Shown here: positions 27,353-64,000 of the stretch, piece by piece | Numbering within the stretch: position 1 is the stretch's first letter | How the letters are laid out: each line of letters starts with the position of its first letter | Assembly (NCBI RefSeq): GCF_029227915.1 | Contig: NC_079875.1 | Location: forward strand, 12,399,001 to 12,463,000 | Source of the DNA: Hydractinia symbiolongicarpus | Lineage: Eukaryota; Cnidaria; Hydrozoa; Anthoathecata; Hydractiniidae | Length of the DNA stretch: 64,000 nt | Reading direction: 5' to 3' | The notes under the pieces: generated by a model | The model's database searches: none | Seen by the model: the letters and a program-made list of their open reading frames with translations, nothing else | What the model was told of the DNA's origin: nothing | Program-made: the position numbers and the translations under genes

Positions 27353-28448
27353 TTACCTTCTTTGTCTTTTACTATGTAACCTAGCTAACAATTGTATCAA
27401 GGAGTTCATTTTTTTCTTCTTTTCAATTGCTTCTTCTTCAGCAGATCTTCTAGCATTTAGATGTCCAAAAAAATCCCATAAATTTGCATTAGGGTCTGTG
27501 TACACTTGCATACTATTTGGGTTAGGTCTAGTCCATGTTACAGAGCGACCAACTAAGGTTGTACGAGGATTAGTATTAGCTTGCTGATATAGCTGCGCGT
27601 TATTAACTTGGTTATAAGCTGGTTGACCAGTAAATAAACTGGCATAATTATGGTTATTGTCATAAGCAGGGTTATTAGTACCATAATTAGGAGCAGTGTA
27701 TGACGGTATATTATTTCTCTGATAGTTTCTGTAAGCATTTGTATTGTAGTTATATTCACCTCCCATCATCCCATTCGATGCCGTGTTTTGAAAGTTCTGC
27801 TGTAGACCAGCGTATGGATTTAATACTTGACTCGGCATTATCGATGGTTGGTTTTGCACAGCAACTTGTTGATTTTGCAAAATAGCTTGTGTTGGCGCCC
27901 CATGGCTATTATATAAATTTGGTACATTGTTTGGCGGCACTATTGTTCTTGATGGAGCGCCATTTTCACCAAAAGTATATGTAATTTGCGTGATTTGTAC
28001 AGATGATTTGGCGTTCGTTTTTGTGTCGTCGGCAACAGCCTTCTTGTGCAACGGGTTTTCTGGATGTGTTACGTTTTGATGATGAGGTTTCTCTTTGGTA
28101 CCGTGCAATATTAATTGCCAGTCTCTTAGAGTACCCGTGTTAGACCTTGACTCTCCGCCATCTTTAATCTCCAAAATCCATTTCCCGCGCGGATCTTCAC
28201 CCCACGCATGCGTCGTCATAAAAGCCCATTTCTTAAAACCTTCATCCGATGAATCTTCGCTTCTTACTGGAAGCAAACATGATCTGGTGCCCATAGGAGT
28301 TACTAAGTATATCGTTAGGTCACCACGTCGTGTGTATTCAATAGTTAAAATTATCTGCACATGTTCTAAGTACCTAATTTCATCCTTTGAACCCGCACAG
28401 CCATTTGTTTCTATCTCCACTGACAACGGTTGGTCCCAGCGTAGAGCC
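27353..28448 (-). CDS. Convertase exon 10: P domain and Asn/Tyr/Gln-rich tail
   Basis: Residues 507-622 form the P (homo-B) domain ([20 protein letters not shown], then [13 protein letters not shown], then DWQLILHGT). After it come 240 residues with no known fold. Roughly residues 700-810 are dominated by Asn, Tyr, Gln, Ala and Pro ([29 protein letters not shown]). The last 30 residues form a predicted charged helix with [17 protein letters not shown] and a terminal KRQRR. Vertebrate PC1/3 also ends in an amphipathic sorting helix, so the helix may target secretory granules. No transmembrane segment is present. The stop is at 27353. Confidence 0.9.
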
Positions 28449-43934: not shown

Positions 43935-44620
43935 ATGACTGCCATCATTTGGTTGCTAATCATCATTCCATTCTGTGCTGCAGGTATGCGTTGTTACTGT
44001 AAAGTTTGCAGTTGTTTTCATCTATGAGAGAAGCAGGATTAACGGGACAGAAGCACCAGAGAAGGCTGAAGCACTAAAAAAGACGGGAGCACCATAGAGG
44101 GAGGAAGCACTAGAGAGGACAGGAGCACCAGAGAGGCGGGAATATAAGTGTTGGAATATTGCAATGTGGCTACTATTCTCATTCTAATGTTACAGTGTAC
44201 AGTCGTGGTGTATATTTAAGATCACTTACACTAATTTTACACAAGAGAATAATAATCACTCATTATTAGAAAAAAAATTATAAAAAATTACCTGGTCTAA
44301 TAAAAAATCAAATAGGAAATGAACAAATAAACGAACCATTGGTATGAACATAACCTGAATTCGAATTCGCCTGATTCAATCATTTTTACTGGCTGCAATA
44401 TTTTTGCTTAAATTCTTTAGAGTTAGAAAGTTCTTTTCTTTAGAACTTTGCGATTTGAAAGCAGATGGCATGTACCAAGATCCACACAATTGCAATGGAT
44501 TCATAGAATGTTTAAATTATGAAACTACAGAGTGGAATTGTCCTCGTCCTGATTTGTTTTTTGATCCAGTCTTACAAACATGCACCAATGTTAAATTTCC
44601 TGGTTGCGAAGAAGAGCAAG
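43935..44620 (+). CDS. Channel gene exons 1-2: signal peptide and CBM14
   Basis: Exon 1 (43935-43983) encodes MTAIIWLLIIIPFCAA, a clear signal peptide, with donor gcag/gtatgc in phase 1. Exon 2 (44444-44620, 59 codons) is a CBM14/peritrophin-A chitin-binding domain: six Cys in CDLKADGMYQDPHNC, FIECLN, WNCPRPDLFFD and CTNVKFPGCEE, with the aromatic positions of the family. It is a phase 1-1 exon, freely shuffled. An A/G-rich minisatellite (44045-44140) lies in intron 1. Confidence 0.88.
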
Positions 44621-47600
44621 GTTAGAGAAAAATATCAATTTAAGACGCAATAAATTGTCCTGCAGAAATAATTTCCCCAACGTTAAAAGTTACAAACCAA
44701 AATGAATATGTAAATGCAAATAAATTATAGATTCAAGCAATAAAGGGAATTGACTTGTCATATTCGTATATTCTCAACTTTGAGATATCAAAGGCTATCC
44801 ATGCAAAAAAGAATTGGATTTTCCATCCAGCAGTGCTCAGATTAGAAGGTGGTCAGGAATAGACTTCAATGGCGAAACCTTGCCGGCGAAAAAATAGTGA
44901 AAATTCGAGGTTCTTTAAAAATATCATCGTATTTTAACTTTTAACATCTATGTTGTGTTCATACAGCACGATGCTCTATTGCCTACTAGAATAGTGATTA
45001 TTAGAATGGGTTTGTTTACAATTTCAGTTACCATTGTGATTGAACACGAGAATGCAAAAAATAAAAAGATTAGAATTACATAGAATTTTGGTTCTACCAT
45101 TAACAGTTGATCCTACTTTTGGCTCCTTTAGTAACTAATAATTAGTCTTCTTCTTAACCAGATCCATTTAATCTTTCTTAGTCTGCCTGAAGCTTGGGCG
45201 TATCCCATTTCGCATGTCAATTCTTTCATTTGCACAGTTATAACTGCTAATAACTGCTTATACCTGCTTATACATGTCTATATCACCTCCATAGTCATTA
45301 TTGATCTTTTTAGAAGTTCGGCATGCTTTATATTACAAATCAGTGGATGGTAACATCAAATGTATTAAGAATGTCAGTTCAACTGTGGTAAAATCACATC
45401 CTTTGGGTTGTTGCTCTATTAATGAGAAAGTACGACACCACAAGGGAGATATTTTGTACTGGTACAAGGGAAAAGCAAGTGAAAACTGCTTTAAAATCCA
45501 AACTGGTTATTTTGCCTTTATCCCTACACTATTAGGTACGTTCTACTTTTAGAAGGTAGTGTAATTTTCACATATTTGATATATATGTATATATATGCAC
45601 AAATCGTATGACTTTATCAATATGTAATTATGAAATAATAAGCTATACACTTCGTCGAAACTTTAGAATGCACTGTTTTTTTCCAATTGAGGTTCATTTT
45701 TGCTATTTTCTTTCGTTAAGATAACCTTGGCTTACTATCTTTTAAATTACTTTTCAACTTATGTTACAGCATCTTTTTTACATTGGCTATAACATTCAAG
45801 CTTGAGGTTTAAATTGTGATGGACTTTAGGCGCACAGTGTCTAAATGGAGGCTTGTATAATAGGAATATGCAGGTATCTAGGTTATAAAATAAAGACTTT
45901 AAAGGAAGTAACCAGGACCTATTGTTATAAATAAAAACGCAATTCAATATCTTAGGTGACTGCACAAACATGCTTGCTGATGTTTGTGTCAACGATCAAG
46001 CAAATAAATTTGAAATTGTATCAAAATGCCGACAAGGTTTCTCAAGGTTAAATTCTGGTATGTGCGTAAGTTAGATCGAACGTTACTAAGCAATTTCGTA
46101 TGCTAGTGTTTTGTAAATAGTTACGATGAACAATTTTTTATATAAAAAATAAACATGTAACTGAATTTCAATTACTTTTAATTTTTTCTTAATTTTAGTT
46201 ACCTGCATGAGGCAAGGTGGGGTTTCTTTTTTAATATTACCACATACTTTATTATATATATATGTAGTAATTACTAAGGTTTGAAATGCGTAAATAGAAA
46301 AAAAGTTTATTTTGTTCTCCAGCCCGCTGTTACAGTCCTCCTCACAAAAAAACTTTGACATCTTTTTACCCTTCCAAATTGCATTGCATTTTTATGAAAA
46401 AAATATTTTACGAAATATCTACTATTAATTTCAAATTTTACTTTATTATAAAAACTTTATTTACTTTCAGTAAAAATAGTTTCATCTTAGCCTTTTATAT
46501 TACGTCATCCAATTCGTCACCTAACAATCAGAAATGTTTTAGAAATTTACTTCTGCTCTATTTTTACAGTCGATGTAATATAAAACTACAAACAACGGAG
46601 TTATTGAATACTTACACAATTTGTGTTCCAAAGCGCAGTAGTACAGTACAGTTAATCCCAATATATCTAGCTCGTGTGAAGTGCCTATTCTACAACCATA
46701 TATGTAATGTCTAGGCTAAAAAACAACTGCTTTCCAGAAGTCAAAACAAAATGCTGTTTTCCCAGCTATTATTTGTGCTGGAAAACACTTTCATCTTAAA
46801 TATACTGAGGATTTTTGTTAGGCAAATCTTTTGCGTCTTCGTTACCTGGTCTTCTTCCTCGTTTGGCATTATACCATGTACCAGCGATGTTAACATATAA
46901 CCATGTTAGCACCATTTTGCATCATAATTACATGAAATAAATTATACTTAATCGTTAGAAAAGTCAATTAGTTTTTTGGCCAAGATATAAGTTACTGCAC
47001 TGTTGTCATTTTGAGTAAAATCCAAAAAGAACACACAGTTAGTCTTTTGTTATATCTCGCTCTTATCCTAATACGCATGCTTACCATGCACACTCCTAAA
47101 CAAGAAATTGTATTTCCGATTATCTTGCGAACAACTTTAATGCCGCATTTTTAAGTATGGTACGACGGTAATGTCTCATGTAATTTATGTTTTAATTGTC
47201 TTTAATGTTGTGGTCTCTTAAGAGTCACATTTTTTTTGCTGGTGATAGTTTCCAAGTTTAAATTTTAGCGTTTATTTTTTATAGTTGCCCTATGGAACAA
47301 AGATCACTGCTTATTAAAACCTGTTGAGAAAAAAAGAGAAAATTGTTGCAACCTAAATTTGAAGTGGTATATGCGAATGAATAGAATATACAATCAAAAT
47401 GGATTATGCTGGTCAATTGCAGGCGACACGTCGCAAATACTTTTGCAGCGTGCAAAAGACGGTATCATATTTTAATATAATAAGTTCTTCTGTCAAATAT
47501 GTATAGTATCTACTGCTTATTTAACTTTCTGTGCATTCAAAAACGGGTGCATAATGTGTCCCTCCCCTTAACGCCTGCCCTGCAACCGCTTGAAACATTA

Positions 47601-50600
47601 AGCTACTCAAGGTTGCAATGCATCAGTATAACTTTAGGTATTTTAAGTTAACCATAGGAAATGCAGCACAAGAATTATGCGACGTCGAGGCTTTCAAAAG
47701 AAGAATTAACACATGATTAAGTTATAGATAACATAGAATATCTAGTTTTATAAGAATAGATGAAATCTTTTGTAAGCTAGAGTTTAGTGTTCACTCATCA
47801 TTCGTTTCTAAAATCAGCCTTCCCACATGTGTTAAAATTTGGCGATTATTAAAACTTTCCCACCATAATAATTCTTTTTCAAGTTTAGATAAGAAATGTC
47901 ATCGATTTACTGGAAACAGTGAACATTTTTTGACATCGTTTAACGATCCTTATAACAGATGCTTCACTAATGACAGCCAAACAACTCTAAAAAGTTGTGG
48001 ATCACAATCAGTAAAAGTGTGTACGTACTCTTAATTAATTTTGAATCCAGCGTATATTGGTTTCTCTATTCATTTTATGTATTTCTTACTTAAGAAATGC
48101 GAAAAACAAAGATGACATTTACAGTTCCTGTTCCTAATGTTGTCAATGTCCTTAAAAGGAGGTCTTGTTTCATGTAGAATTTCCATTTGAGCTTCAGACG
48201 TCGTGTAAAAACAGCAACCAATCATTAGGCAATCCTTTAGTTTATAAAGTTATATTCATGCTGAAAGCTAAGCAGATAAGGCTGGTTCAAACTTCTATAG
48301 CCTGCTGCTAGGTCTTGAACCAGCGAATATCCATAAAAAAACAAAAGCCTCAACGCAGGCCAATCAGTCAGTAAAGAATAGGAAATTAAATTAAATTATG
48401 GATTAATGTTATTTGTATATCACTTGTTTCTGTTATTTAGATGCATGTGAAGATGCATTCGACGTTCAGACAAAACCTACACTTAGAATTAAGCCACAAG
48501 GTATACGTCAATACAATATTGATATTAGTTTCTTACAATACAAATTCTTAACTGCTGTAATTACAACAGATGCAAAAAATGCTGCATAATACACAAATGG
48601 AATAAAGTGTCCTGAAATTTATTTTAGATACATTTAATTTAAATTACCAAAGATTTTAGAACAATTATTTTGTGGTTTCGATTATTTTAAATATTGTTTC
48701 CTTGATGTAATGTTCCATAATTTTATAATGTTATAGCGACACAATTTTAATGATTTTTTTGTTTTAAATTATTTTTATTGTCAACTGAAATAAGAATATA
48801 TTTAAGTACGTCGATTAAATACTTTATACACTGTCATTGAACATATTATTTCTGTTTGTCTCTTCAGTATTCGTATATTTTTGCTGAACGTTTATCATTT
48901 CTTGACCATAGTAGTTTAGTAGCGCTTTTTCAGGGTTGGAGATAATTTTGGTAAAAATTGGCCTTGAATTAGAACTAAAGTCCACAAATAATGTATTGGA
49001 AATATTACTGTTAAATTGTGCAACTCTTAGATTTTTGCACATAATTTTTAAAGACCAAATACATTTTTTCAATTGTTTAACTATTCTATGAGGTGTCTGA
49101 TTATTAAGTGTATTTTTGTGGAGGAGGTATTTAATTTGAAATTAACTTTTCGTAATATAACCTTTTATAACAGACAAAAATTAGAAATTGGGTTGTGATT
49201 ATGTTAGCACATAAACAGTTTTATTTCGACTCGAATTCTACATGGCCAATGTTGATCTAGCTACTAATTTGTTTCTGGCAAGGATATTTCTGGCAACTAT
49301 TGGTTTGATTTAAAGCCTATTTTAAAAGTGATGGTTATTAGAAAAAAGCGTTAAAAACATGTAGGAACTCATCGAATTTTTTTTTCAAAGGAGGCGTTTA
49401 AGAAAAAAGGCGTTTAGTGGAAACATTACGTATTATTCGTGGCGTTAGAAACATAAAATCACCTTGTCTTTAGAATTTGTCTTCCTTTATAAACAAGCTG
49501 ACAACACAAGTAATTGCGTGATCCGAAATTTACAAAGCTTTGAAATATCATCGCCCTTCTCATTGCAATGCTGCTATGGCAATTCAAAGATGAAAGTTTT
49601 CTCAAATGGAAACGTGATAAATAGACAAGAATATTTACACGTTACCCCAGAGAGCCTTTTAAAATTCACCCGTAAGTAACTAAATTTTAATCTGGTTTAT
49701 GATAAAAATCAACTTATCTTGATTGTTAAGTGGTATCAGTTGCTACTAACTGCTGTAAATTACAGACTGACTAGCAGAAAATATTTGCAAGAATATGACG
49801 TCATTTTTGTTCTAAATGACGTCATAATAATGCTTTTATACCTTGATCATCTTTACTTTCAATAATCAACATTCGTACCCTGTTTAATGACATTCGAATT
49901 AATACTGCCTTATGGCGTCATTGTATTAGTTGTGTTTTTTTTACCTAGAATGATTTTGTATGAAGTATTTATACTATTAATTAAAATCAGCTGTCTGGGA
50001 AAATTAAAAGACGTCTTTTAATTAACGTTATGTTTTATCATGCTATTTATCAGCAAATATATCCACAAGGTATGCATGCATTCATAACCTTAAGTGGATA
50101 TAAATGTAGGTCCATTTTTAAGCAGCGTTTAATGGATCGTAAATATGTTAAGATTTGAATTCTTTTTAGAGATACACCAAACTGCATTCAGAATCTTAGA
50201 TGATGGTATTCTTCGTGTTGTAAACTTTGCGAACTGGTATAACTTCAGATACAATAAATACAAGAAAACGATTCATGTCGAGTCATTCAATGCCAGTAGT
50301 CAGATTAACTTAATGACACTTCAATGCCCTCTTACAGTTAGTAAGTTCACAGCTACTCTTATATAACATCAGTTCTGTAATTTATGTTGACAATAAGAGA
50401 GATTATTCATTTGTAATTGCAAGGACAAATGCTTATTTCCATCAAATTAATCTTATAAAAGTTTGCTAAAATCTAATAATTTACTTCTCAGACTTAACTC
50501 AAACTGGATCATGGTATATTTTTGGATCAAGTTCGTATATTTATGTAAAAGAACCTATGACATTCGATCAAGCTGAAAAGTATTGTGCAATATTCAGTTC

Positions 50601-53600
50601 AACTCTCACTAGTATCACGAACTACTTAGAACACGTAGCAATCAATCAAATTGTAACGAGTCAAGAATTTTGGATTGGCTTAGTAAAGCGTAGTAAAGGT
50701 TGGGAATGGTTAAATAGTGAAAATGTTAGTAGTGAGTACATTCCCAAGTATGCATCTCACATATGTGGTGCTGGTAACTCATCAACATTGATGTTGCACA
50801 GCGATGACTGTATGAAAATGAAATCATTCATTTGCAAGCGTGCTATAAATGGTATGAGACTTTTTGCATGGAATTGGTAATATGCACGATAAATAATTTT
50901 ATATTTGTACTTGTTGAATAATGGAATGGTGTTTGATTTGCTAAGCAGAAACAACTGAATAGGTCCTAAGGCCTTACATTAATGTTTACGTTTGTACAAT
51001 TTTGAAATCTATGTAGGTAGTTATGGATAAACATTTTGTGTGCTGTCTTACAGCATAATAACAATATTTCAATGTATAAATCTCGACTACGGATGTTTTT
51101 AAACTCGATTTGACTAATCTAATCTAAGATGCAGTATATAGACCTAAAATAAATATGTACTTTACCTCTTATAGACTCACAAACAAACATATGTGGCCGC
51201 AGTTGGATTCCATACCTTTCTGGTTGTTTTGCCTTGTTTAAGCATAACAAATCGTGGGCAGAGGGTCGTAACTTTTGTCAACTGGCTGGTGGTCGTTTAG
51301 CGGTCCCCAACACTGAATGTGAGAAAAACTTTATAGACGCCATTGCGAAGAAATATAAAGGAAAATATTGGATTGGTTTATCTCGTAAAGCAAACAGTAG
51401 TGTTTTCACGTCTGAAGATTCATCCAAAGTATACCAACTAGATCCTTCCTTGGATCTAAATTTTACAACTTCAGAACAACAATATGTGTACATTGATTCG
51501 AGCAGGAATTATGAATGGAAAATCTCTGTATTTAGTTCGCCTGAAACATATTATTCATTATGTGAAAAACGTGAGTTTGTAGGGTTTCATTTTGCGTTTA
51601 TATATTTTGGTTCATGTAAAATGTGTTTTTCCTTTGTCCTTGTTTTAATACTATATTGGTGTTATTTTTGTATTTCTTTGTACTTCTAGATCTAAATGTG
51701 ACAAATTCGAAAAGAAATAACATCAGTGAAACACCGCAACCAGATACAGGTACAAAGCTAAGCTAAAGAAGATTGCCTTTATGTTTTCATTGAAAATACA
51801 TTATTTCAATGTTTACATTTAGAACATAAATATTGGATTGCTTACCAGAATAATTCTTACTTATTTGTCAATGAGAATGTCACTTGGTTTCAAGCGGAAA
51901 GAATATGCAGAGACTTGAGCAGTAACCTAACTAGCGTATTGACTGCAGATGAAGAAGACTTTCTGGTCAACGTTTTGTCGAAACATACTCCTTTTTGGCT
52001 TGGTTATGTTAAAGGAATGTCTAGCTGGACTGATGGTAAAATATATGAACAAAAATTTTGGGCAACCACAAATACATCTGATGCAGGGAAAATATTTTTG
52101 ATTAAAACGAAATGTGGTATGGTATATGAAAGGAATGAAAATAAGAATGCGTTTGTATGTAAAAGAATAAGAGGTAAGGTTGTCACTAAATTCATCCGAA
52201 TATTTAGAATATCCATATTTTTCACGTAAAAAAATTGAAATTTACACAAAGTTACGAAACAAAAAGCTGTGATTGATATTAGACTTAATAGTTTTAGTCA
52301 ATTTCTTACAGTATGGGCTATTTCTGTTCTTTTTTTGTCACAAGTACTTCCACACTGAACTAAGAATTAAATACTGTATCTGAATGAAAATTTCACAGAA
52401 AAGAGTTATTTCTAACTAAAATAAAAATGATTTGTAAAAAAACACTCTTAATGACATGTTGGTTTTCATCTAGAAAATTACCTGCTGGGCGACAAGAAAA
52501 CATGTTCGGCATGGTCACACAATCTTGGTTATTGCTACTACATGTCTGAAATTCATACAACAAAAACAATGGCAAAATATCTTTGCATAGCAGGTGGTGG
52601 CAGTCTTCTTGATGTAGAAAACGAATGTGAAAAGCAGTTTGTTTTGTCAAATACATTCTGGGTTAAAGCATCAGCAGACACTGTGGATTTAAAGAGGAAA
52701 TTTGTTTGTGGCAAACCTGCAGGTGTGTTTACTTTTATAATTTCGGATTGGCCATCTTAATCATTAGCAGGTATTAAATAAACAATCTGTTTTTCCTTTC
52801 TAGCTAAGACTGCAATTCTGGGGAGTGAAAATAGTACTGAAGAAACTGGTGGCTATTATAAGCTAGGTATATCTTATTTTTATAAAAACGTTGTGGCTAC
52901 CTGTGGATAATGTTGCTTACGTATTTAAGCTTTTGGTTTTTAAACAATCGCTATAAATTTTCCTCCAAACCTTTGCAAATAAAAAAAAGATTGATATCTT
53001 CAAGTTTTATAATTCTCTTTTTAGATAACGGCTGGTTTGTCTATCAAAACTCCCAATACTTTTTTGCGAGACTAGCTCTAAACAAAAGTGCATCGCAACA
53101 GCTGTGTGAAGCGTTAGGAGGCGCGTTACCCTCTATTACAACAATAAGTATGTTGAACTTTGTGCTTAACGCGAGTGGCAGCGAAAGTATATTTTGGACT
53201 GATTTAGCAAACTCGACAAAACATCAGCACTCATTATGGGTTCTTGGAATACCTGATTATGGGAATGATCAAGACATTATGGCGACAAGGTGTGGTTTAA
53301 CATCATCAACTAATATTATAATCAATGCACAGGTTTGCCAAAGAGGTGAGTATATTTTCGCAGTAAATACAGAACGCGAAAAGGACCGTCACCATGATAT
53401 ATAAAATAAAGGAATAAAAATATGGTATGAAAATATGGAGCAGCGTTGGCGAATAGCACCGGTTGAGAAAACTATAGACTTGTTTGTCTCATTTGCTCAG
53501 ATGAGACCACTTTAAATAAACGCAATTTAAATTTTATATTTTTTTCTCACAGAATACTAAATTCATAGTATTACTGAAAAACAGAAGTTGGAGAGTAAAA

Positions 53601-56600
53601 GAATATGAATCTCATTAACATTTATTTTATTTAATTTTTAGTAGTATCTATATGCATATTTTTACCATATTCATACCATATCTTGATAATTGTGTTTATT
53701 TTCAACAGGTAACAAACCTGAATATATAACTCACTGTGTACCGCCATCTTTGACATACAATTCCTCTTGTTATACTCTAATTCCACTGGATATGACATGG
53801 CAGCATGCTGAACTAGTTTGCAATAATATAAAGGCGAGTGTATTAACGTTACCGACGAGACACGAATGGCATTACCTTCTGGGGAATTTTAAGGAAACAA
53901 CAGTTGCTGGTTCTTGGTTGGGTATGTGTGACGCCATTATATTTTTGATGAAGACACGTATACACATTATGTTACTAAAATATATTATATTAGATCTGAA
54001 ACAAGAACTTTACTTGATTAAAATAAGATTTAGAAACAAGGAAGATATTTTTTCTTCGCAAAAAATTGCACGTTTGACTAGAACTATGTGAAAAGTAAGA
54101 CAAAAACAAAGATGTCCTTAGTTTTTAACTGAATCTAAGCCCAATCGTTTTTATAAACTACACTGCTAATGCAGAATTGTACGATATTTAAATCACCTTA
54201 ATCCCATTTTTTATCTTCTTCAAAGCATCTTCGTCAGAACAGCGCAACAAAAGTAATCTGTGTTTATATCTGGACGCTTTTGGAAAGACTGGTAACATAT
54301 CATGTCAACTCAATATGAAGTTTATTTGCAAGAAAAAGATGCACAGCATACTTGGTGCTACTTTAGGTAGTCTGATATTTTGCAAAATCATTGAAAAAAT
54401 CTAGGAAAAAAATTTATATGGAATAAACTAATACTTGCATACTTCACCAGCATTCATTTGCTTTTAAAGTGATTAGCTATTCAGTTCAGTGATATGATTG
54501 CTAGTCCAGGTAATACCTGGACTAGCAATCATATCACTGAATTTTTTCCTTTTTCTAAGCTAATTTTTTTTGTATTGACAAAGGTCGCAAAACTAGTTTG
54601 GTTTCTCCAAACATTTCGCAAATGGTCTAACAGAAAAAAGTTAAAAAAAGACTGCCAACGCTTTCTCCTACTACTACTGTTTACAAATATTATATTTAAG
54701 AGCCAACAACAACACGCTCAACAGGACCAGGGATATCAATTAAAACACAGCTTCCCTCTGATGTCGGTAAGTCTTTAAGGTAGAAGAATATTCACCAGAT
54801 CAGATGATCAGATTTATGAATAAGTTACATGTTCTTACAATGACCACCTTTTTTTAAAATTACACACATTTGCATCTGTGCCAAATGAATGAAGCTGTAA
54901 CAAAAATTATGGTGCGCAATGTTCCTTCTGATGCATAAACTTTCCAAGATGTATTTCGCAAAAAATAGCAGCCTTGAAGTTCGAGCTTTCGCAGAAAAAA
55001 GCGCGTGTGTTTTAATGTAAACAAAGACGTTTTAGGTATAATGCGAAGAAAGCAATTCCATTCTTAGACAAGTAAGACTTGTTCTTCTCCTCACTCATGC
55101 AAAACTAAAGCTAAAATAAATTGCATTAAATATACTTATACATAAGTCTCTAATTTAAAACAGTGGGCACGCGCAAACAAAATGCTCTTGAGCTGCGCTA
55201 TAGCAGAATATGCAGTCAAATGGAAACGAGCCTTTATACACTAGCACAAAAATCAAAACAAAAAATAATCTAAATTTAAAGAAATAAATTTAATTTATGG
55301 AAATATGTTTGGAAATATATTTTTGAACGTTATTTTTGAAAATCAGAAAGCATGCATGTCACAAAATAAACATTTTCACTGTTTCCCCACAACGTGAAAC
55401 AGCTTAGTTTAACATCTAATTCACGAAGATGACGGCACTTAAAATAGGTCTCCCCTACAATACACATGTGCTATAAGTAAAAACTGCTGTATTCTGTCGC
55501 TTTGTCTGCTTTGCGTAAGGTCTATTATGGAGAGGTGGTGGTTACTGAGGAGCTATAGTTTTTTGCAATAATTTTGTATTGCCTAATTTTATACCTATCT
55601 TTCTTTCTGTGTAACAAGAATATTCCGGAAATATACAAACTCTATGCTTAGGTCAGTGGTCAACTTGGTCGCCATGGTTACCTTGTGATGTTCTTTGTGG
55701 TTCGGGCAATCAAGTCCAAACACGTGAATGCCTGAATAATCGAGGCAGAAAGATTGACCCAGAGTTATGTACAGGAAAAGCAAGAAAAGAGAAAAATTGT
55801 TTGGGCTTTGGTGACTGTTCAAAATTTTATTCTGCTGGCGTTAGTCAAAGTTGTGCAGATGTTTGTGAAAGCTTAGGTAACAAGATACATCTAATGTAGC
55901 TACTAGAGTCAACCATAGTTTAATTCAGCTTTCCCGTATTTATTCATATTTTTTATTGCTTTTACTCACGTTTTTGTCCATAACGACTCTGCAAAAGGTT
56001 TGTGAAAATATTAGGTGTAAAAGTAGTTAGAAAAACCAACGCGTTTATAATAACATCAATGAGGTCATGTTTATTTTTAAAAAAATATTTATCTTATCAA
56101 GGAAATGTGCATTAGAAATTTCATGTTTGTAGCTTTTCCGGACCCCTATATCCTTCTTTTGGCGCAAGAAGCTCCGCTAGTTAAAACGAAACACTGATTT
56201 TTTAAAGATATTGGTTACTATAATAAATCTTTTACTATCATTAATTAATCACTTATTGTTTTGCAATTTTCATATTCTTCAGGAAAAATTTGTGACAAAC
56301 GAGTTCAAACCGGAGATACAAATGAGTTATTTCGCGCGACTGGTTACCAGTGCTCCAACAACATTTCAAGGGTTTTATGGACAGGTGGATTTCAACCTTA
56401 TATTGACATCAACACTTATTTGTGTGTTGGTTACATGAAACTGCCAAATGAAATCAACTGTGAAGTAAAACCAAGTAAACCGGATTTTAGAAGAATATGT
56501 AAATGTATTAACCAAGGTAGGTAAACTGTGTATTTAGCAATAAAAGTTTAAATTTTCACTTTATTCTACTTTTAGTTATAATGCAAGGACCTGGATAAGT

Positions 56601-59600
56601 TGTTCTTGGAATATATATTCAGACTTTTCATGGTTTAAGGATTTTTTTATGGATTTTGATAACCAGATAACAAAAAGGTATTAAATTTTGGCGGTAATGT
56701 AATTTGGCGAAAAGCAAAGATAAATAACCTTAGCTTTTTGGCGCGAATGCATTATAATCGTATTTTCTTATCAATCAGATTTTTTAATATCCACAGAGAG
56801 TGCAAAATAAGTTTTAAGGGGATTTTAATTTGGGGGATTTTTGAAAAAACCGCTAAATCCGCTAAAATTTCTTCCCTTACGCTAAATTATAGGTAGATCT
56901 AATTTTGTATCAAATATTTTGCTAGATGATGTAGGTATGACAACGTGGACACCATGGAGCAAATGTTCCTCAACGTGTGGTGGTACATGTTTTCGCAGGA
57001 GGACATGCGCACTAAGCTTTGATGGGCCTTGTTCCGCAAATAGAAAAGAAGTAAAGAAATGTGGTCATTCGGATTGTCCAGGTGAGACTTTTGTATCAAT
57101 GGTTATCAACGTAATGTCTCTGTGTCAAAATGCAGTAAGAAAAGTTTTCTCAAAACACTAAGTTTTGCATGTTTTCATGACCATTGGACCTAAAATTTTT
57201 GTTGACTTTTCCAAATTTACCTTAGTTCGATCACTTTTGACTTCTTTTGTTATTTTTTTGTGGTGACTATTAAACCTATGGACTTTTCCATGGGCAGACG
57301 GTTACTCTCCATCATAACAACTGTTGTTTCTCCTTGAGACAAAGATTGCAGCTGTGAATAGCGAGAGTACGAGTCCTGTAGATTTTTATTAGGCGAATTG
57401 ACAGGCCAACTAGTTTTTTATAGGTTTTGATATATTTATTGGCTTTCTAATGCTATTCGAATTAAATTAAACTATTTCCTCACTGTATGTTTTTAAGTTC
57501 ACGGTGAGTGGACAGCCTGGGCTGCTTGGACGCGCTGTAATCAAACTTGTGGTCACGGTGTACAAAGTAGAAATCGCAGCTGCTCAAATCCTTTCCCATC
57601 CCTTGGCGGTGAGAAATGTTTTGGCGAAGAGAAACAATACCAAGCCTGTTACGTTACCTGCACTGGTATGTATACTAAGTATTTTTGGTACGTGTCTGTT
57701 ATGATTTCCTGTTTTACTGACACAAGCATTACCCAGCCAGCAAGGGGAAAGAATGTCAGTTAGGCGGTAAAAGAAAAGGGAATGCGCAGTCCATGAACAA
57801 GTTTGTGTAACATTACTTTTTCGGAGTTTGCAATAAATTTAGTCCCTAAAGAATTTTAAAGAACTGAACCTGTTAAGAATTACTAAGCAAAAAATAATAA
57901 ATTTTTTAAGGAATAATTTGTGTGTATACAACCCGAGAATACATAATTTGAATAAAAATAACACAATGTGTTTTACCTAAATGATTTTGCGCTGCTGACC
58001 ATGTTACACATGCAAGTTATAATACAGTGGACTCTCCATTACTCGAACTCTCACGGCCAATCAGAAATCGTTCGAGTTATTGTGCGGATCGAGTTTAAAG
58101 GGTTTCGAGTTATGGAGGGCCAACTGTCCATTCTAACTCAACTTTTCACAAATACACCGTAACATGGCAGCATTTTCTTTTATTTTCTGAATCGACAGTT
58201 AATATTATTATTAATTTTTTTCCAAACGTGTAGTTAATGGAAGTTGGTCAACGTGGACAGCATGGTCTGCTTGCAACAAACCGTGTGGTCATGGCAATTA
58301 TGTTCGAACAAGAACTTGCACTAACCCATTGCCCTTATATGGTGGTTGCATTTGCAAAGGAGTGTCAAAAGAAGAAACACCATGTGGGACCGCTACCTGC
58401 CCAAGTACGTAAGCAATGTGATAGATGTTTGGAAGTTGTAAGTTTACTAAAAAAATTGACAAGGTTTATCAAATATTCCTATTAACGTTTTGGTAGCGTA
58501 TTTTTTTTACAAAGCTCCTTCAGACTTTGTTAGTGAATCGGCAATTAGACATATTGTTTTTTCCGAGAAAATAATTTTAAAAATCGTTAGTGTAGTTGTA
58601 AAGTAGTCGTGGCAAAATAGTGTTTTGCAAAAATAAAAAAATAATATTGAAGTTGACATTACCAAAATATTGCAAAATATAACATTTCGTTTGAAAATCT
58701 CGGGTATATTTTATTAAATTTTGTGGTATTTATTTTTCCCAACCCTTTAAGCAAATTAGGATTATTGATTTAAAAAGTTTATGTCTAATTCCCAGTGCAA
58801 TTTCTCATCATTGAATACTATTTTAGAAGTGACGGTGCAAGTTTCATGTAAGCTTGACAGAAAATATACATTCGATTTAACACACGGTAAAATTCCATTC
58901 GCAAAGTTGGAAGATGAAATACGTCACGAAGTAAGTTTTGTACGCACACCTATGTTTGTTAAAGGGACTACGGAACTGCTGTTGGTTTTCGACTTTAGTG
59001 ACTTACACGAAAGTCGAGCTGATGGCGCAGAAAAACAAAAATTGCTATTTTTTCGGCATGTATGTAATTTACAGACTCGAACATCTAGAATTTTTATCCT
59101 CTACAGCCTCGGTCATGTTTTCATCCAGAATGAGTCTTGCTGAAATATTTCTTTGTAATAACTTTTCAAAAAAAAATATTGAACCAGCAAGGAAAGTGCG
59201 CTGATCTGTTCATTGTGCAAAACGCGGTTGCCGGATTTTTAATATGTGCGCGGGGTATACGGAATGTGCGCATGTTAACCGGTTCGTAGCCCCTTTAATG
59301 TCGTTACTAGCTACCTCTTGAATAAACCTTTATAATTGAAGTTAAGCAATTTGAGTGACTGAACTGAAACTGGAAAACGTGAGCAACACAACTTATAGCT
59401 TTTCTTTTCCGTTGGTTCTTAATTCCTGTCACTTCTCTGTGATTACTAGATAATGAGCGACAACACTATTGGAAATGTGGAAAAGGTTACCTTGTTAAAA
59501 GCATCGTATGTTATTTCTTAAATTTTAAAATAGTGTTAGCATATAGCTAGGTTACATTCGTGTGATAGTTTATATTGTATGATTTATACTCGTTTAATAA

Positions 59601-62600
59601 CATATTTAACTAGTAATAAGCCTGTGAAAAAATCCACAGGAATTTGCCTGCAACTTTGTCTTACAGACGTATGGTCAGGTATTATGATATAAATAGTCAT
59701 CGCGTTTCGTATGTTTTTCCCGCATTAGTATTTTGTGCGTCTTTGCTTTCCTTTTGGCTTTAAGTAATAAAATTAGAACTGCAGGGTGTACGAAAAACTG
59801 CTGTGGGATGCCATTTTGAACATACAGACAAAATACAGATATAAGAGATAGTGATTTCTTTCATTCTATAAATAATTGGTTATTCTAGTATTGCTTTTGC
59901 AATGATTAAAGGCTTTTCAGGAAAAAGTAAAAATTCTATAAATGACTTACCTGAACTTGCGAAAATGTTATTTTTTATGAAACTGTTCCACGTGCGAAAA
60001 GATAACTTCCAGGGAGCTTTTACAGAGTTAAAGTTGTTTTATCAGTAGCGTATTATATTGTAGACCCGGAAGCATTGACGTGGTGTTCTCCATTGAATTC
60101 ACGAAACTGAATAATTTTGAACTCTTGTCGCTACAAGACAGCATAGATGTGAATCATGCAATCGGAAAAATACCCATCGTTCCAAATACCATAGCTTCAT
60201 TTAAAGCTGATAAAGGTAATTAAATTAAAATTCTAGAATGTTCCTAGCATCATGAAACGGAAATGGTTGTAATAATTCCATATGTTTTACAGAAAAAAAG
60301 TTTTTTGTGCGGAAGATATCAGATATTCTTGTAATAACATTTTACGAAAAATATTTTTGAAAAATATTTCAAATTAATTTTATATCGTTATGACTTTGCT
60401 CTCAATACAAGCTTAATACTTAATTATCTCAGTACTTGATAAAGAAAAAATGACGATTTTGAGCACTTTACCGTAAATCAATTAAATTCCACGCTTTATC
60501 AATTTTATAAACAAGAAAATTGCAAATGCCAAATCTTTTCACCATAGTTGCTGATATATAATCCTTCCCCCAAGATATCTTAAAAAATTAAAGAGTTAGC
60601 AGAGTATATTCAATTTTTAGTTCCTACCTCACCGCCAAGCAATATCACAATACGAACTTCATCGCCAAATTCGCTAACCATATTATGGAAAGACGTCAAC
60701 ATACGTGGTTTGGAGATAACATCTTATATCCTGTTCTATCGAGAAAAATCCAAGGTCTCAAGCATGTATGATACATTGAGTACGAACCAAACATCCGCGG
60801 TTCTTTCTGGTTTAAAGGCTGGAACAAGATATGTGGTGAGAATATTGGCCAGCACCAAATCAGGAAATGGTATCGCCTCCAAGGAAATGGTTGTTCAAAC
60901 AGAAGAAGATGGTAGGAATACTAGTAGCATGCTTGTGATTATTGACTGTTAACAAATTTTTGAAAATTTGGCTTTATTTATTTTAAAAATAATATTTCGT
61001 CGGAAAACATTATTATCGAACGAAATATTTCGTTCGTACATATGTTGTTGGAATAAATTTTTCCTAGCTTAGAGGATATTCGATACTGTTTTCTTTAAAA
61101 AAATAAACGTTTTTGCTTGAGCCTAAAATCATTTTCTATATTTCTTGTTTATAAAAATATAAAAATTATACCACAAATGTTAGACCTAAAACATTTTTGG
61201 CAATTGGTGCATTTATATGCGACAATTAAAAGAATTCTTCTTCACTTTTGGCGCAATTTATAAATATTTTAATGACGACTTTCAAATCATTGCTCTTATA
61301 TATAACACTGGTCATGGTTGATGTTCTCAAATATGTTTTAGTTCCAAGTCTTACGCCTGGTAATGTTACCGGTATCAGCATATCTTTTGACAAGATATTC
61401 ATCCAATGGAAAAGAGTGGACGAAGGTGCCATGAATGGAGTTTTAATTGGTTATGATATAATTCTTGATGAAAGTATGAACAGGAAGAAAATATTTTTCC
61501 CGCATGAAAATACGAGTGTTATATTAGACAAGTTAAAGGGTGATACTCAATATGTTATCTCGGTGTGTGCGGTCACGAAGGCTGGCTCCGGACCGTGTGG
61601 AGTTACACAAGTGCGAACAAAAACTTCAGGTTTGTCGTTGAAGGATATTTATCAATCTTTACTTGTTTACTGTTCATGTTGGTAACTCCTCACTTCAGAA
61701 ACTAAGTTCTAATTTTCGAGTTATTATATTGGCACATCTCGAATAAATTTTTACTGCAATTAAAATAATTTGAGTTTAGTAAAAATACCAGAAAAACAAG
61801 TCATCGTGTTTCTTGAGCTTTGTACTAAATCCTATCCTTATCATCCCTACATTACTAAATTAAAAAAAAAACAGCACATGAGGTTTTTGTCTTACACTAT
61901 GAATCTGGGTAACTTCACAAGTAAACACATGATTCGCTAGAAGTGTGTCGTAATAACAAGAGTAAAAACTACGATGTGCACCATAAAACAATGCACTAGT
62001 CCGTGCCTTAAAAAGGTTTCACAGATTGAAGAAATGAATAGTAATTGCATTCATTTTTATACCTTAGCACCAACTGAATCGCCGATGAATCTTACAGTAG
62101 TGAGGTACTTACACAATAGCCTTTCAATACAGTGGAGACCAATACCAGCATATGCATTGAACGGAGAACTCATCGGTTATAAGGTACTATATAAGCCGAT
62201 GGATACTCACGAAAAGGCCACAAGGTATTTAAGACTAGATGTTGCACCATGGCAGACATATGCGAAGTTAAATATTTTGTTACCTAATTCAAAGTACATG
62301 ATACATGTGCTAGGTATTAACGCATACGGGGATGGCATTGGAGCATCAGTTACTGCCAGTAAGTTTTCGTTTAAACTTTCCTATGGCAGACACTACGTAT
62401 TTTTTTCTCCTAATAAGATCGTGAAGGAATTATATTGACTAAATTTTTAAAACTGATTACTTTAGAAACTTGTAAATGTCCAGAAGTTATCTACAGTAAC
62501 TATTACATAACTAAGCCATATACAACTCGTCTAAGAATGTTTTTTGATGGAATATTTCCCACAGTTATAAGAGATATGTTCACATTTGCTTGTGGGTTTT

Positions 62601-63893
62601 GTCCTGATGCCAACCAGAACACAACTACTGTTGACTTGACGTCAAATGGTAAATATGAATATGCCAGTAAATCAACGCTAGAGAGAGTTGTGGAAGATAT
62701 TGATGATTTTACGCAATTAAGTTTCCCACTTTCAGCAAGTGTGAAAGCCAAAGATTCGATGGACATGGTTTACGTACCTATATTGAAATATCCGGGTTCT
62801 TTATTTATTATTCGCCAGTACGACATACATGAACACGTGATGCACGTTGTGGTACAAATTCTTCAACTATGGCCCCTGTTTGTGATAAATTTTATGTTGA
62901 TCGTGTTTGTGGGAGCTGCCATTTGGCTTTTGGTGAGTTTTCACAGTTATGTTGTTAATTTTCAGAATGTGATTAAAGTTGAGCAACAACATTAAAAAAG
63001 TCGTATTTATTTCATACTTTTCAGGATGTAACAGGTAGTGGAAAAAATCATTTTTCCTTAAACAAATGGGATGGTATAAGAGAGGGTTGGTACTATGCCT
63101 ATGTTACACAAACTACCATAGGGTATGTCTGCGTGAATCTTTTTTGTTTGCTACTTTATTTTTGACACCATTCTCGTTGCCGTGGCGTCGTGGTAGTATT
63201 AGGTACAAAATGCGACACTTGAATACTCGCTTTCTTAACAGTTATTTTTAAGAAAAGCTTTCTTTTCTAGAACGTTCTGAAAATGTTTGCAAGAGATGTT
63301 GTGCCAGTTGGTTGTTAATGTGTAGCGGAAGGGGTAAAATGGCGCATTATGAAGGCAACTCAATTAAGAAAAATAAAAATAGAAAAGCGAAGAGTGTTTT
63401 ATTGATCAGTGTATTGTGGTGCAAGATTATATTACCACCACAAGGAACAAAATAATATTTACGTTACCCTTTGCGGCCTTAACCAATGTTTTTCTGGTGA
63501 TATTGACACACAAGTGTGTGTTTTTGTTTAGATATGGTGACTTTACCCCCAAGAGGTTTCTTTCGAGGTGTTTTGCGATCGGGTGGATGTTTCTAAGCAT
63601 TATTATGTCATCAGTGTTGTTAGTAGGCGCACTTACCACAGCTTTTACCACTTCTGCGTTGGAGGAGGTACATACCATATATGGAAGGAAGGTAATTTTT
63701 TCTCTCAAAGCTTGTTAAAAATTTTAGGATATAAAAGTGGTAAACTGGGCGCTTATAAAAAACGAAAGACAATGGAAAATGGAGCACTAAGGTAGAGTGT
63801 CACTTTTTTTAAACTTTATTTTTTAGATTGCTGCGTTGTCTGGCTCTTTTGAAGAAAAGTTAGCTACGTTGAGAAATGGAAAGATTAACAAAA
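43935..63893 (+). CDS. Giant lectin/TSP1/SEA/FN3 receptor with potassium-channel-type pore
   Basis: About 34 exons read as one gene that continues past the window: about 2,200 codons here. In order: signal peptide, CBM14, small Cys modules, six C-type-lectin-like domains, TSP1, a Cys-rich module, three TSP1, SEA-like, three FN3, a 155-residue membrane-proximal region, TM1, a pore loop with TIGYGD, TM2, and the start of another soluble domain. Continuity rests on consensus splice sites whose phases agree at every join: nearly all introns are phase 1 and module exons are multiples of three. The product should be a plasma-membrane channel with a large adhesion-type ectodomain. I know of no described family with this full arrangement. 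A fusion of two adjacent genes is unlikely, because no stop, polyadenylation-like break or new signal peptide interrupts the phase-1 chain before FN3. Weakest part: 46324-46676. Confidence 0.8.
44045..44140. repeat. A/G-rich minisatellite, about 19-bp period
   Basis: About five diverged units built on gaagcaccagagaggaSRg are spaced near 19 bases (agcacc/agcact at 44052, 44071, 44089, 44108 and 44127). It lies in intron 1 of the channel gene and is strongly purine-biased on the plus strand. Confidence 0.7.
45314..46057 (+). CDS. Channel gene exons 3-4: first X and Y modules
   Basis: Exon 3 (45314-45535, 74 codons) is module X1: HALYYKSVDGNIKC, PLGCCSIN, ILYWYKGK, ENCFKIQTGYFAFIPTLL. Exon 4 (45956-46057, 34 codons) is module Y1: GDCTNMLADVC and IVSKCRQGFSRLNS. 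For exon 4 an alternative, stronger donor 9 bases downstream (tgtgc/gtaagt) would shift the phase. I recognise neither module as a named domain. The X pattern (Cys, Gly/Asn-Cys-Cys, aromatic strand, Cys near the end) returns at 47285-47461 and 49474-49671. Confidence 0.7.
46324..46676 (+). CDS. Channel gene, uncertain exon(s): Y2 and X2 modules
   Basis: After a good acceptor (ttgttctccag), a phase-1 frame opens with RCYSPPHKKTLTSFYPSKLHC, similar to the later Y3 module (KCHRFTGNSEHFLTSF then NRC). The same frame stays open for over 110 codons and reaches an X-like segment (NQKCFRN, SRCNIKLQ, ICVPKRSSTVQLIP), with a possible acceptor at tcttag (46491) and donor at gctc/gtgtga. Either one long exon or two exons with a very short intron is possible. 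The cysteine pair typical of X is reduced to one Cys. Low confidence. Confidence 0.35.
47285..48500 (+). CDS. Channel gene exons: X3, Y3 and a linker
   Basis: 47285-47461 (59 codons) is module X3: DHCLLKPVEKKRENCCN, LKWYMRMN, GLCWSIAGDTSQILL. 47889-48020 (44 codons) is module Y3: KKCHRFTGNSEHFLTSF, NRCFTND, LKSCGSQSVKV. 48441-48500 (20 codons) is a linker, ACEDAFDVQTKPTLRIKPQ. All three are phase 1-1 with consensus borders. A SINE (48180-48372) sits in the intron before the linker. Confidence 0.65.
48180..48372 (-). repeat. tRNA-derived SINE, copy 2
   Basis: Same family and orientation as 40155-40325. The tail complement ccatttgagcttcagacgtcg matches ccatttgagctacagaagtc there, and the head complement (aggtcttgaaccagcga) corresponds to the B-box side. 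It is inserted antisense in an intron of the channel gene. Confidence 0.55.
49474..50340 (+). CDS. Channel gene exons: X4 module and an unassigned exon
   Basis: 49474-49671 (66 codons) is module X4: EFVFLYKQADNTSNCVIRN, SLQCCYGNSKMKVF, EYLHVTPESLLKF, with the Cys and Cys-Cys positions of X1. 50170-50340 (57 codons, donor agtta/gtaagt) gives a beta-strand-like segment (FRILDDGILRVVNFANWYNF, then INLMTLQCPLTV) with a single Cys. It may be the tail of X4 or the start of the first lectin domain. Both are phase 1-1. Confidence 0.65.
50492..51570 (+). CDS. Channel gene: C-type lectin-like domains 1 and 2
   Basis: 50492-50851 (120 codons) is a complete CTLD in one exon: GSWYIFGSSSYIYV, MTFDQAEKYCAIFSSTLTSI, FWIGLVKRSKGWEWLN, HICGAG, DDCMKMKSFICKR. 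51175-51570 (132 codons) is a second: NKSWAEGRNFCQLAGGRLAV, YWIGLSRKAN, YSLCEK. The four core Cys and the WIGL motif are seen, but the EPN/QPD and WND calcium-and-sugar motifs are absent, so calcium-dependent mannose or galactose binding is unlikely. Protein or other glycan ligands are possible. Confidence 0.85.
51690..53345 (+). CDS. Channel gene: lectin-like domains 3-5 with linkers
   Basis: 51690-51749 is a 20-codon Ser/Thr/Pro linker. 51823-52173 (117 codons) is CTLD3 (VTWFQAERICRDLSSNLTSV, FWLGYVKGMSSWTDG, AFVCKRIR). 52474-52722 (83 codons) is CTLD4, clearly shortened: it has TMAKYLCIAGGGSLLDV and KRKFVCGKPA but lacks the long loop. 52804-52866 is a linker. 53025-53345 (107 codons) is CTLD5 (ASQQLCEALGGALPSI, SIFWTDLA, MATRCGL, NAQVCQR). 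All exons are phase 1-1. Retained fold residues with missing loops suggest structural spacers or protein-binding lectin folds. Confidence 0.82.
53709..54766 (+). CDS. Channel gene: lectin-like domain 6 and linker
   Basis: 53709-53921 (71 codons) holds the first half of CTLD6 (SSCYTLIPLDMTWQHAELVC, SVLTLPTRHEWHYL). 54226-54366 (47 codons) holds the second half (SNLCLYLDAFGKTGNISC, MKFICKKK), so this CTLD, unlike the others, is split by an intron. An alternative donor at 54354 keeps the same phase. 54701-54766 is a Thr/Pro-rich linker (EPTTTRSTGPGI). A 57-bp palindrome lies in the intron before the linker. Confidence 0.78.
54485..54541. other. Perfect 57-bp palindrome
   Basis: A 28-base arm, starting ttcagtgatatgattgc and ending ccaggta, and its exact reverse complement flank a single A. 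It lies within an intron of the channel gene. No flanking complementarity extends it. Confidence 0.95.
55652..56516 (+). CDS. Channel gene: TSP1 repeat 1 and Cys-rich module
   Basis: 55652-55876 (75 codons) begins with a TSP1 repeat (GQWSTWSPWLPCDVLCGSG, QVQTREC, LCTGKARKEKNC, FGDC), with the Trp ladder and CSxTCG-type turn. It continues into QSCADVCESL. 56283-56516 (78 codons) continues GKICDKRV, GYQCSNN, YLCVGYM, INCEVKPSK, RRICKC. Together CADVC, C, C, C, C and CKC form an eight-Cys module of about 95 residues that spans the intron and is appended to the TSP1 repeat. I do not have a name for this module. Confidence 0.8.
56926..58404 (+). CDS. Channel gene: TSP1 repeats 2-4
   Basis: Three one-exon TSP1 repeats: 56926-57081 (52 codons; TTWTPWSKCSSTCGG), 57498-57665 (56 codons; GEWTAWAAWTRCNQTCGHG) and 58234-58404 (57 codons; GSWSTWTAWSACNKPCGHG). 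Each has six Cys, the WxxWxxW motif that is the usual C-mannosylation site, and, except in the shortened second repeat, the basic ladder (QSRNRSC, YVRTRTC). TSP1 repeats bind matrix glycans and proteins and serve as stiff spacers. All are phase 1-1 exons. Confidence 0.9.
58827..60215 (+). CDS. Channel gene: SEA-like domain over three exons
   Basis: Exons 58827-58930, 59450-59505 and 60064-60215 rejoin in phases 0 and 2 to give about 105 residues. They start KVTVQVSCKLDRKYTFDL and continue with a helical stretch (FAKLEDEIRHE). GNVEKVTLLKAS follows, then SPGSIDVVFSIEFTK, the characteristic Gly-Ser-beta-strand segment of SEA domains, where many members self-cleave. The consensus GSVVV is altered to GSIDV, so autoproteolysis is uncertain. 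The domain sits between TSP1 and FN3 modules, a usual membrane-proximal place for SEA. It is the only ectodomain module besides CTLD6 that has internal introns. Confidence 0.65.
59780..59840. repeat. Dispersed repeat, pair of 16380-16440
   Basis: See the partner entry. Here it lies in the intron between the second and third exons of the SEA-like domain. Confidence 0.5.
60621..62358 (+). CDS. Channel gene: three fibronectin type III domains
   Basis: Each domain is one phase 1-1 exon: 60621-60911 (97 codons), 61342-61629 (96) and 62068-62358 (97). Core residues are present in each: PP/P near the start, the strand-B Trp (TILWKDV, IFIQWKR, LSIQWRPI), the Tyr of strand C (ITSYILFYRE, LIGYDIIL, LIGYKVLYKP), and the Leu-x-Pro/Gly-x-Thr-x-Tyr corner (LKAGTRYVVRI, LKGDTQYVISV, LPNSKYMIHV). 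No RGD loop is seen. The second and third resemble each other (GVLIGYD/GELIGYK), suggesting local duplication. Confidence 0.92.
61017..61036. other. Perfect 20-bp palindrome
   Basis: cgaacgaaatatttcgttcg is self-complementary with no loop. A related aatatttcgtcgg lies 25 bases upstream. It is in the intron between FN3 domains 1 and 2, and could be a foldback-element core. Confidence 0.8.
62466..62932 (+). CDS. Channel gene: membrane-proximal domain and TM1
   Basis: This 155-codon exon has a phase-0 end. It begins TCKCPEVIYSNYYITKPYTT, then FTFACGFCPDANQNTTTVDL, then VEDIDDFTQLSFPLSA, VPILKYPGSLFIIR, and then the first membrane span (LWPLFVINFMLIVFVGAAIW). The order small Cys turn, DFTQLSFP (compare the vDFSxPF of glutamate-receptor S1) and VPILKYPG, then TM1, suggests a reduced S1-like ligand-binding half. 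This is inference from weak pattern similarity; no ligand-contact Arg can be assigned with confidence. Confidence 0.75.
63025..63691 (+). CDS. Channel gene: potassium-type pore loop and TM2
   Basis: Exons 63025-63122 and 63532-63691 join in phase 2 inside the selectivity filter: YVTQTTIGYGDFTPK, with the split Gly codon GG/A. The pore helix is WDGIREGWYYAYVTQT. TIGYGD followed by an aromatic and Pro three to four residues later is the canonical potassium-channel signature. TM2 is CFAIGWMFLSIIMSSVLLVGAL followed by TTAFTTSALEEVHTIYGRK. Assembly as a tetramer of TM1-P-TM2 subunits is expected from the family. Confidence 0.93.
63827..63893 (+). CDS. Channel gene: post-TM2 exon at the window edge
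   Basis: 22 codons follow TM2: IAALSGSFEEKLATLRNGKIN, donor aaca-aaa/gtacgg in phase 1. After the TM2-proximal YGRK the segment reads as K-I-A-x-L-x-G-S-x-E-E, resembling the opening of an S2 half of a periplasmic-binding-type ligand domain (gkkVavlkGSxxE) rather than a cytosolic tail. The remainder lies beyond the window. Confidence 0.7.
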
Positions 63894-64000
63894 GTACGGT
63901 CAATTATTCTATTTATAAACTCATGCCTGCTAAAGTATTATGCCATATGCCTTATTATATATTAATAAATTATATATTTTTTGCATGGAGGAAATGCAGT

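Follow-up and report, generated by a model that had tools for sequence, protein, structure and literature searches.

Ionotropic glutamate receptors (iGluRs) have a common layout, with an N-terminal ectodomain and the two ligand-binding halves S1 and S2 outside the cell, a pore loop entering the membrane from the inside, and then the M4 helix and a tail. GluR0 of bacteria and AvGluR1 of a rotifer are given as K+-selective members of the group in the relevant passages of a review (PMC12332018) and a research paper (PMC12226733) on iGluR origin, the latter source terming the rotifer receptor highly atypical. Neither a cnidarian iGluR with a K+ filter nor its fusion with an adhesion ectodomain appears in the titles and abstract beginnings of the papers listed in searches of the open-licence literature. 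The word potassium is absent from the main text of PMC6307864, and the accessible part of PMC8260672, on cnidarian lectins, does not mention a channel fusion. The absence of such a channel from print is provisional. The gene described here, as judged from its sequence, likely encodes just such a receptor-channel subunit, in which an adhesion ectodomain would be fused to a ligand-gated S1-M1-P-M3-S2-M4 unit of iGluR type with a K+ filter.

The gene lies on the plus strand of the window, that is, the whole stretch of 64,000 nucleotides analysed (C1:12399001-12463000 of the 480.9 Mb assembly in 76 contigs that was also used for the genome searches). With the DNA past the window end included, the complete model has 2083 residues, 29 exons and a single terminal stop, and all 28 introns have GT-AG borders. 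Introns 1-16 are all in phase 1 and the remaining ones in phases 0, 2, 1, 1, 1, 1, 0, 2, 0, 1, 0 and 1. The N-terminal part consists of a signal peptide, CBM14, six C-type lectin-like domains (CTLDs), one TSP1 repeat, a Cys-rich domain and three further TSP1 repeats, and the C-terminal part of a SEA-like domain, three FN3 domains and S1-M1-pore(TTIGYGD)-M3-S2-M4-tail. Each of the modules named in the first-pass annotation was recovered in its place and on the plus strand when the gene was rebuilt exon by exon, and CBM14, the CTLDs, TSP1, FN3 and the pore were found also by Pfam. The unbroken series of compatible splice phases claimed there extends across the 29 exons, the SEA-like domain being phase-consistent only with a proposed exon at 59450-59505.

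The first coding exon (43935-43983) encodes the signal peptide MTAIIWLLIIIPFCAA and ends in a phase 1 donor. It is followed by the CBM14 (peritrophin-A type) exon at 44444-44620 (Pfam CBM_14, E 2.4e-9) and by a Cys-containing exon of unnamed type and without Pfam match at 45314-45535, after which comes the largest intron (4.96 kb). Across that intron, the link of these three exons to the rest relies on their phase, on where they lie and on the gene requiring a signal peptide, and the membership of CBM14 in the gene is less certain. CBM14 was found upstream of neither of the two paralogues examined, which is a weak negative, as the P3 stretch covers only some 4.4 kb upstream of its first CTLD, against a distance of 5.9 kb in the target. 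A homology of the 45314-45535 exon to an ORF upstream of P3 was considered and rejected, since 189 of 500 shuffles equalled its score. Additional CTLD exons were sought between 45536 and 50491, and none was significant.

All six CTLDs match Pfam Lectin_C. CTLDs 1 to 4 are at 50492-50851, 51175-51570, 51823-52173 and 52474-52722, the fourth being short, and after a linker exon (52804-52866) come CTLD 5 (53025-53345) and the two halves of CTLD 6 (53709-53921 and 54226-54366). The first three CTLD exons gave an E-value of 3.5e-37 in three stretches and the remainder 4.4e-11, also in three. Sugar-binding CTLDs usually carry EPN or QPD and WND motifs; motifs of the EPN/QPD type and WND are absent from all six CTLDs of the target. 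The exon at 55619-55876 encodes TSP1 repeat 1, matched by Pfam, and the start of the Cys-rich domain, and has a counterpart in P1, P2 and P3. The domain as a whole (about 55810-56516) continues in the exon at 56283-56516 and recurs in the same place, between TSP1 repeats 1 and 2, in P1, P2, P3 and P6. Pfam and PDB searches gave it no credible name, a zinc-ribbon match falling below the cut-off. TSP1 repeats 2, 3 and 4 follow at 56893-57081, 57498-57665 and 58234-58404 (Pfam TSP_1, E 2e-33 in four stretches over all the repeats).

Three exons form the putative SEA-like domain: the first at 58827-58930 (phase 1 in, 0 out), the proposed middle exon at 59450-59505 (phase 0 in, 2 out), fitted by phase and SEA pattern and the weakest exon of the model, and the third at 60064-60215, in which PGSIDVVF corresponds to PGSIEAGF in P3. 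Neither Pfam SEA nor a PDB search matched this domain, and the label rests on the PGSI motif, the position and the matching exon in paralogues. The FN3 domains are at 60621-60911, 61342-61629 and 62068-62358 (Pfam fn3, E 3.8e-38 in three stretches).

The channel part begins with the exon encoding the probable S1 and M1 (the first transmembrane segment, TM1) at 62466-62932. The pore helix and the first part of the filter (TTIG) are at 63025-63122, and the remaining filter (YGD), M3 (TM2) and the start of S2 at 63532-63691, so that an intron between 63122 and 63532 interrupts TTIGYGD. These two exons carry the Pfam Ion_trans_2 match (E 1.9e-9), and the filter agrees with the K+ filter pattern TxGYG. 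The first part of S2 (IAALSGSFEEK) is at 63827-63893. Coding continues past 63893 in three added exons in the next 10 kb (L248), here given in continued window coordinates: S2 at 64450-64721 (L248 450-721), hydrophobic M4 at 65306-65474 (L248 1306-1474) and the C-terminal tail with the stop at 66048-66322 (L248 2048-2322). Profile alignment gives the order S1-M1-P-M3-S2, in which M1 and M3 flank the pore loop, and the M4 exon, which represents a feature of eukaryotic iGluRs, has a counterpart in P1, P3 and P4. The K+-filter pore described in the first-pass annotation is thus present, but not as the plain two-transmembrane channel of TM1, TIGYGD and TM2 that was proposed, as S2, M4 and probably S1 are added to it. 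An iGluR topology with a K+ filter is the best reading of the channel, and what precedes TM1, from 62466 to about 62815, most likely represents the S1 half rather than a plain linker. In the paralogues at C1:4.80 Mb (L256) and C1:24.2 Mb (L255) the filter reads THGYGD, not TTxGYGD, and their selectivity may be altered.

The kinship of the channel part was assessed with a profile of bacterial GluR0-type sequences. Bacterial genomes scanned for pores of a GluR0-like pattern yielded at least 118 loci; the profile input had 119 sequences, including one from viral contigs (L119), and 104 of them were kept when five Kch-type sequences, four that were damaged, cut or unfit and six too short at one end had been left out. 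The part of the target within the window scored 91.7 bits with this profile, KcsA 66 and the five Kch-type channels 40-44; for the pore alone the scores were 78 for the target and 66 for KcsA. Among the 120 matches listed of filter-bearing ORFs in viral contigs, 117 scored at most 84.0 and started at profile position 118 or later (75 in the target), and the other three scored 162-282, their matches beginning within the S1 part, at position 30. The margin of the target over other K+ channels (91.7 against 84.0) is small. Adding the S2 exon raised the score to 101.0 bits and extended the match to profile position 301, while the aligned start shifted to where S1 ends (position 119). When flanks were shuffled, the real score was equalled 3 times in 500 with both flanks, 5 in 500 with the C flank and 25 in 500 with the N flank. 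GluR0-like channels were seen in viral contigs (L119, L133, L175 and L222) by profile match or pore pattern, and the peptide patterns of the channel module found no relative in such contigs.

A family profile built from the target together with 13 paralogues, and excluding P7, P13 and P16, matched GluR0 over 277 columns with a probability of 99.9% and E 3.7e-32, the pore alone giving E 1.2e-26; its alignment was assembled from tblastn pieces, some of which (M4 in P6, P11 and P15) are probably misplaced. A smaller profile of 23 bacterial rows and the target matched the solved structures of amino-acid-binding proteins, of GluR0 (1iit, 2pyy) and of GluA2. In a pore tree of 76 sampled sequences (10 of the family, 14 single-exon relatives from the same genome, 21 GluR0 and 31 other K+ channels), all 45 iGluR-like sequences were split from all 31 other K+ channels with a support of 0.74. 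Within the tree the family formed a clade (0.98), and so did the family together with the single-exon relatives (0.87).

The two ligand-binding halves were supported unequally. S2 of the family alone matched GluR0 with a probability of 95% and E 4e-8 (1.1e-8 in a second comparison), so the homology of this lobe to the binding-protein domain is found at the level of the family profile. Searches of the PDB with the single sequence gave no match for S1 or for S2, and S1 alone as a single sequence was not significant against GluR0. Cut apart, S1 of the family gave directly against GluR0 only E 0.019 (probability 2.4%) and, in another comparison, 0.0043 (8%), and its homology is therefore supported only by way of relatives: family S1 matched the S1 of the single-exon relatives (93%, E 2.8e-7), and the latter matched GluR0 S1 (71%, E 3.8e-5; 0.23-0.32 in three negative controls). 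The AlphaFold2 model of S1-M1 was poor (mean pLDDT 64). Foldseek returned nothing at E ≤0.001 for it, and of its 11 weak matches six were binding proteins or iGluRs, a result that is partly circular because the input alignment was GluR0-based.

In iGluRs the S1 arginine holds the alpha-carboxylate of the ligand, and an acidic residue of S2 holds its amino group. The arginine was not seen in the target, which has SFPLSASVKAKDSM at the site occupied by LTxTxxRE in most GluR0 rows. It was not seen in the nearest paralogues either, the S1 turn being variable; P9-P11 have arginines near the site, where the alignment is uncertain. The acidic residue of S2 is kept, as LLDAY in the target and as D in all 14 paralogues with an S2 match (VDAY, IDAI etc.). 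With an unseen S1 arginine and a conserved S2 aspartate, a non-standard ligand is to be expected, probably something other than a standard alpha-amino acid.

As the pore is of the iGluR/GluR0 type with S2, M4 and a probable S1, the most likely opener is a ligand of the S1-S2 clamshell rather than, as proposed earlier, contact with matrix, chitin or glycan that gates the pore directly. Four subunits would assemble a K+-selective pore, and the clamshell, on shutting upon its ligand, would pull M3 open; activation would then lead to K+ efflux and hyperpolarisation, silencing the cell. The ectodomain would anchor or cluster the channel at matrix, glycocalyx or an adjacent cell and may bias gating, and the SEA-like domain may be cut between G and S, its two parts then being held together non-covalently. 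The same protein could instead be opened by force or contact through the ectodomain, with the clamshell surviving as a vestigial strut. Such opening would suit the adhesion-type modules before S1, as well as the unseen arginine and the varying turn of S1, but the aspartate common to the S2 matches argues against a vestigial clamshell, and this alternative is considered rather unlikely.

The union of an adhesion ectodomain and a K+-filter pore in one gene, the central claim of the first-pass annotation, is well supported at the sequence level by the 29-exon model, by module order in paralogues and by the lack of a recurrent alternative signal-peptide exon. About 10 kb upstream was fetched in five of the 16 paralogues, and three of these were traced further. 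On the same strand as S1-M1 and upstream of it, FN3 was present in all five (as two FN3 exons at C1:6.53 Mb), TSP1 in four (not found at C1:4.80 Mb) and the SEA-like domain in four (not found at C9). CTLDs preceded TSP1 in all three paralogues traced further, and none was seen on the opposite strand. The order is conserved at roughly 30-50% identity, and because it repeats upstream in paralogues, two accidental neighbours are unlikely.

A CTLD/TSP1 ectodomain gene could still be followed by a separate, shorter channel gene beginning within or after the FN3 exons, as phase-1 modules always appear joinable and a tandem pair might duplicate as one unit. The single candidate start for such a gene is an in-frame ATG with a hydrophobic stretch at 61272-61359, which reads into FN3 2 and may be an internal start or a chance occurrence. 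Its cleavage site is poor by eye, it would split FN3 1 from FN3 2, and over the roughly 18 kb scanned its occurrence accords with a background of 0.03-0.05 per kb. No signal-peptide exon recurred in the module gaps of the three paralogues, which had 0, 0 and 1 candidates per 19-20 kb. Also the SEA-like exons, with their phases 0 and 2, bridge TSP1 to FN3, the middle one being a proposed exon. Against this evidence, and that of an order kept at such divergence, a pair of adjacent genes appears improbable.

In a genome-wide search with the channel module, the S1-M1 exon was located at 16 loci other than the target and its near-identical copy, with weaker partial matches uncounted. In the stretches fetched, the M3 exon opening with YGD was present in 15 of the 16 paralogues (P16 had only E 0.14) and S2 was seen in 14. 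The copy, at C1:16052786 (L251, L258) on the same contig 3.6 Mb away, is 98-99% identical in the channel part, introns included, the compared stretch being window positions 60965-64000 and onward. It may represent a recent duplication or an uncollapsed haplotype. Several of the Ion_trans_2 matches on C1 occur as equal-scoring pairs. An uncollapsed haplotype would fit a decayed or mis-assembled locus without a product, but 29 open exons, intact splice sites and an intact filter and S2 motif make that very improbable.

The genome also has single-exon relatives. Of 20 loci with an Ion_trans_2 or channel-module match in a long frame, 19 carry a filter-bearing ORF. With the GluR0 profile, 17 of these ORFs, at 15 distinct places, scored 106-152 bits, and the two remaining ones, Kv-like in appearance, 65 and 75. 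The 15 places with single-exon GluR0-like K+-filter ORFs are in part clustered on C13, C5, C4 and C7, and 14 of them were used for the profile of the single-exon relatives. Nine loci in the genome score above cut-off with two Pfam families at once, Lig_chan and Ion_trans_2, five of them among the single-exon relatives; a tenth does so too but has an internal stop. The target misses the Lig_chan cut-off of 30.8 bits with 8.8 (E 1.8), or 11.1 (E 0.35) with S2.

Ion_trans_2 is the sole Pfam name above cut-off for the channel part, and NCBIfam and PDB sequence searches return ordinary K+ channels only (K2P, Kv, NaK, KcsA and voltage-gated), but an ordinary two-transmembrane, K2P- or Kv-like K+ channel with unrelated extracellular and cytoplasmic flanks is the least probable reading in view of the pore tree, the GluR0 profile match with S2, the S2 match of the family, the Lig_chan matches of the relatives and M4 after S2.

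Several other features were seen in the window and beside a paralogue. Exons of a furin-type proprotein convertase at 27356-37050 on the minus strand (Pfam P-domain and Peptidase_S8, the pro-domain slightly under cut-off) form a divergent neighbour of the target. An ORF of 1179 residues on the plus strand (20194-23730) has a Chlam_PMP-type repeat match and, by eye, several hydrophobic stretches. An apparent retroelement remnant is at 1256-2724 on the minus strand, with RNase H above and a weak integrase-like match below cut-off. Near the CTLD exons of P1 (L301, about 2.3-6.3 kb, minus strand) there are long gag/pol-like ORFs, by eye of a Copia-like retroelement.

Tentatively, cnidarians may have kept and expanded an ancestral K+-selective iGluR, one branch becoming contact-placed inhibitory adhesion receptors whose lectin/TSP1/FN3 ectodomains would read the cell surface or matrix while the clamshell reads a chemical. 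The basis for this branch is the at least 17 loci sharing S1-M1 and the adhesion modules upstream in all five paralogues examined. If true, such receptors might serve in self/non-self, prey or perisarc contact, and the fusion of ectodomain and channel would physically link surface recognition with membrane potential.

Among known systems, polycystin-1 and PKD1L resemble the target in that lectin-type modules, as part of a large ectodomain, stand near a membrane part of channel type, and differ in pore and topology. Animal iGluRs (AKDF, epsilon and NMDA) share S1-M1-P-M3-S2-M4 and the extracellular N-terminus, but have a Q/R/N-site loop and a LIVBP-like N-terminal domain where the target has the K+ filter and adhesion modules. 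The single-exon K+-filter ORFs of the same genome share S1, M1, filter, M3 and S2, many of them with an M4-like end by profile; they measure 360-529 residues from stop to stop, without an adhesion ectodomain within the ORF. GluR0 (Synechocystis Slr1257) and the other bacterial GluR0-type channels are like the target in S1-M1-P-M3-S2, in their K+ filter (TxVGYG) and in the profile match, but lack an adhesion ectodomain, and the S1 arginine is mostly present in the bacterial rows, unlike in the target. Bacterial GluR0 is also, according to the passage concerned in PMC12332018, a two-transmembrane protein without M4, which the target has. AvGluR1 of the rotifer Adineta vaga can be likened to the target by description only: it shares the animal iGluR architecture and a K+ filter, and a lectin/TSP1/FN3 ectodomain is not mentioned in the corresponding passages (PMC12332018, PMC12226733). 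A multi-gene family of K+-filter iGluRs in a hydrozoan would alter the picture in which GluR0 and AvGluR1 are named as the K+-selective members, and would let the origin of the cation-conducting iGluRs of animals from K+-selective ones be tested.
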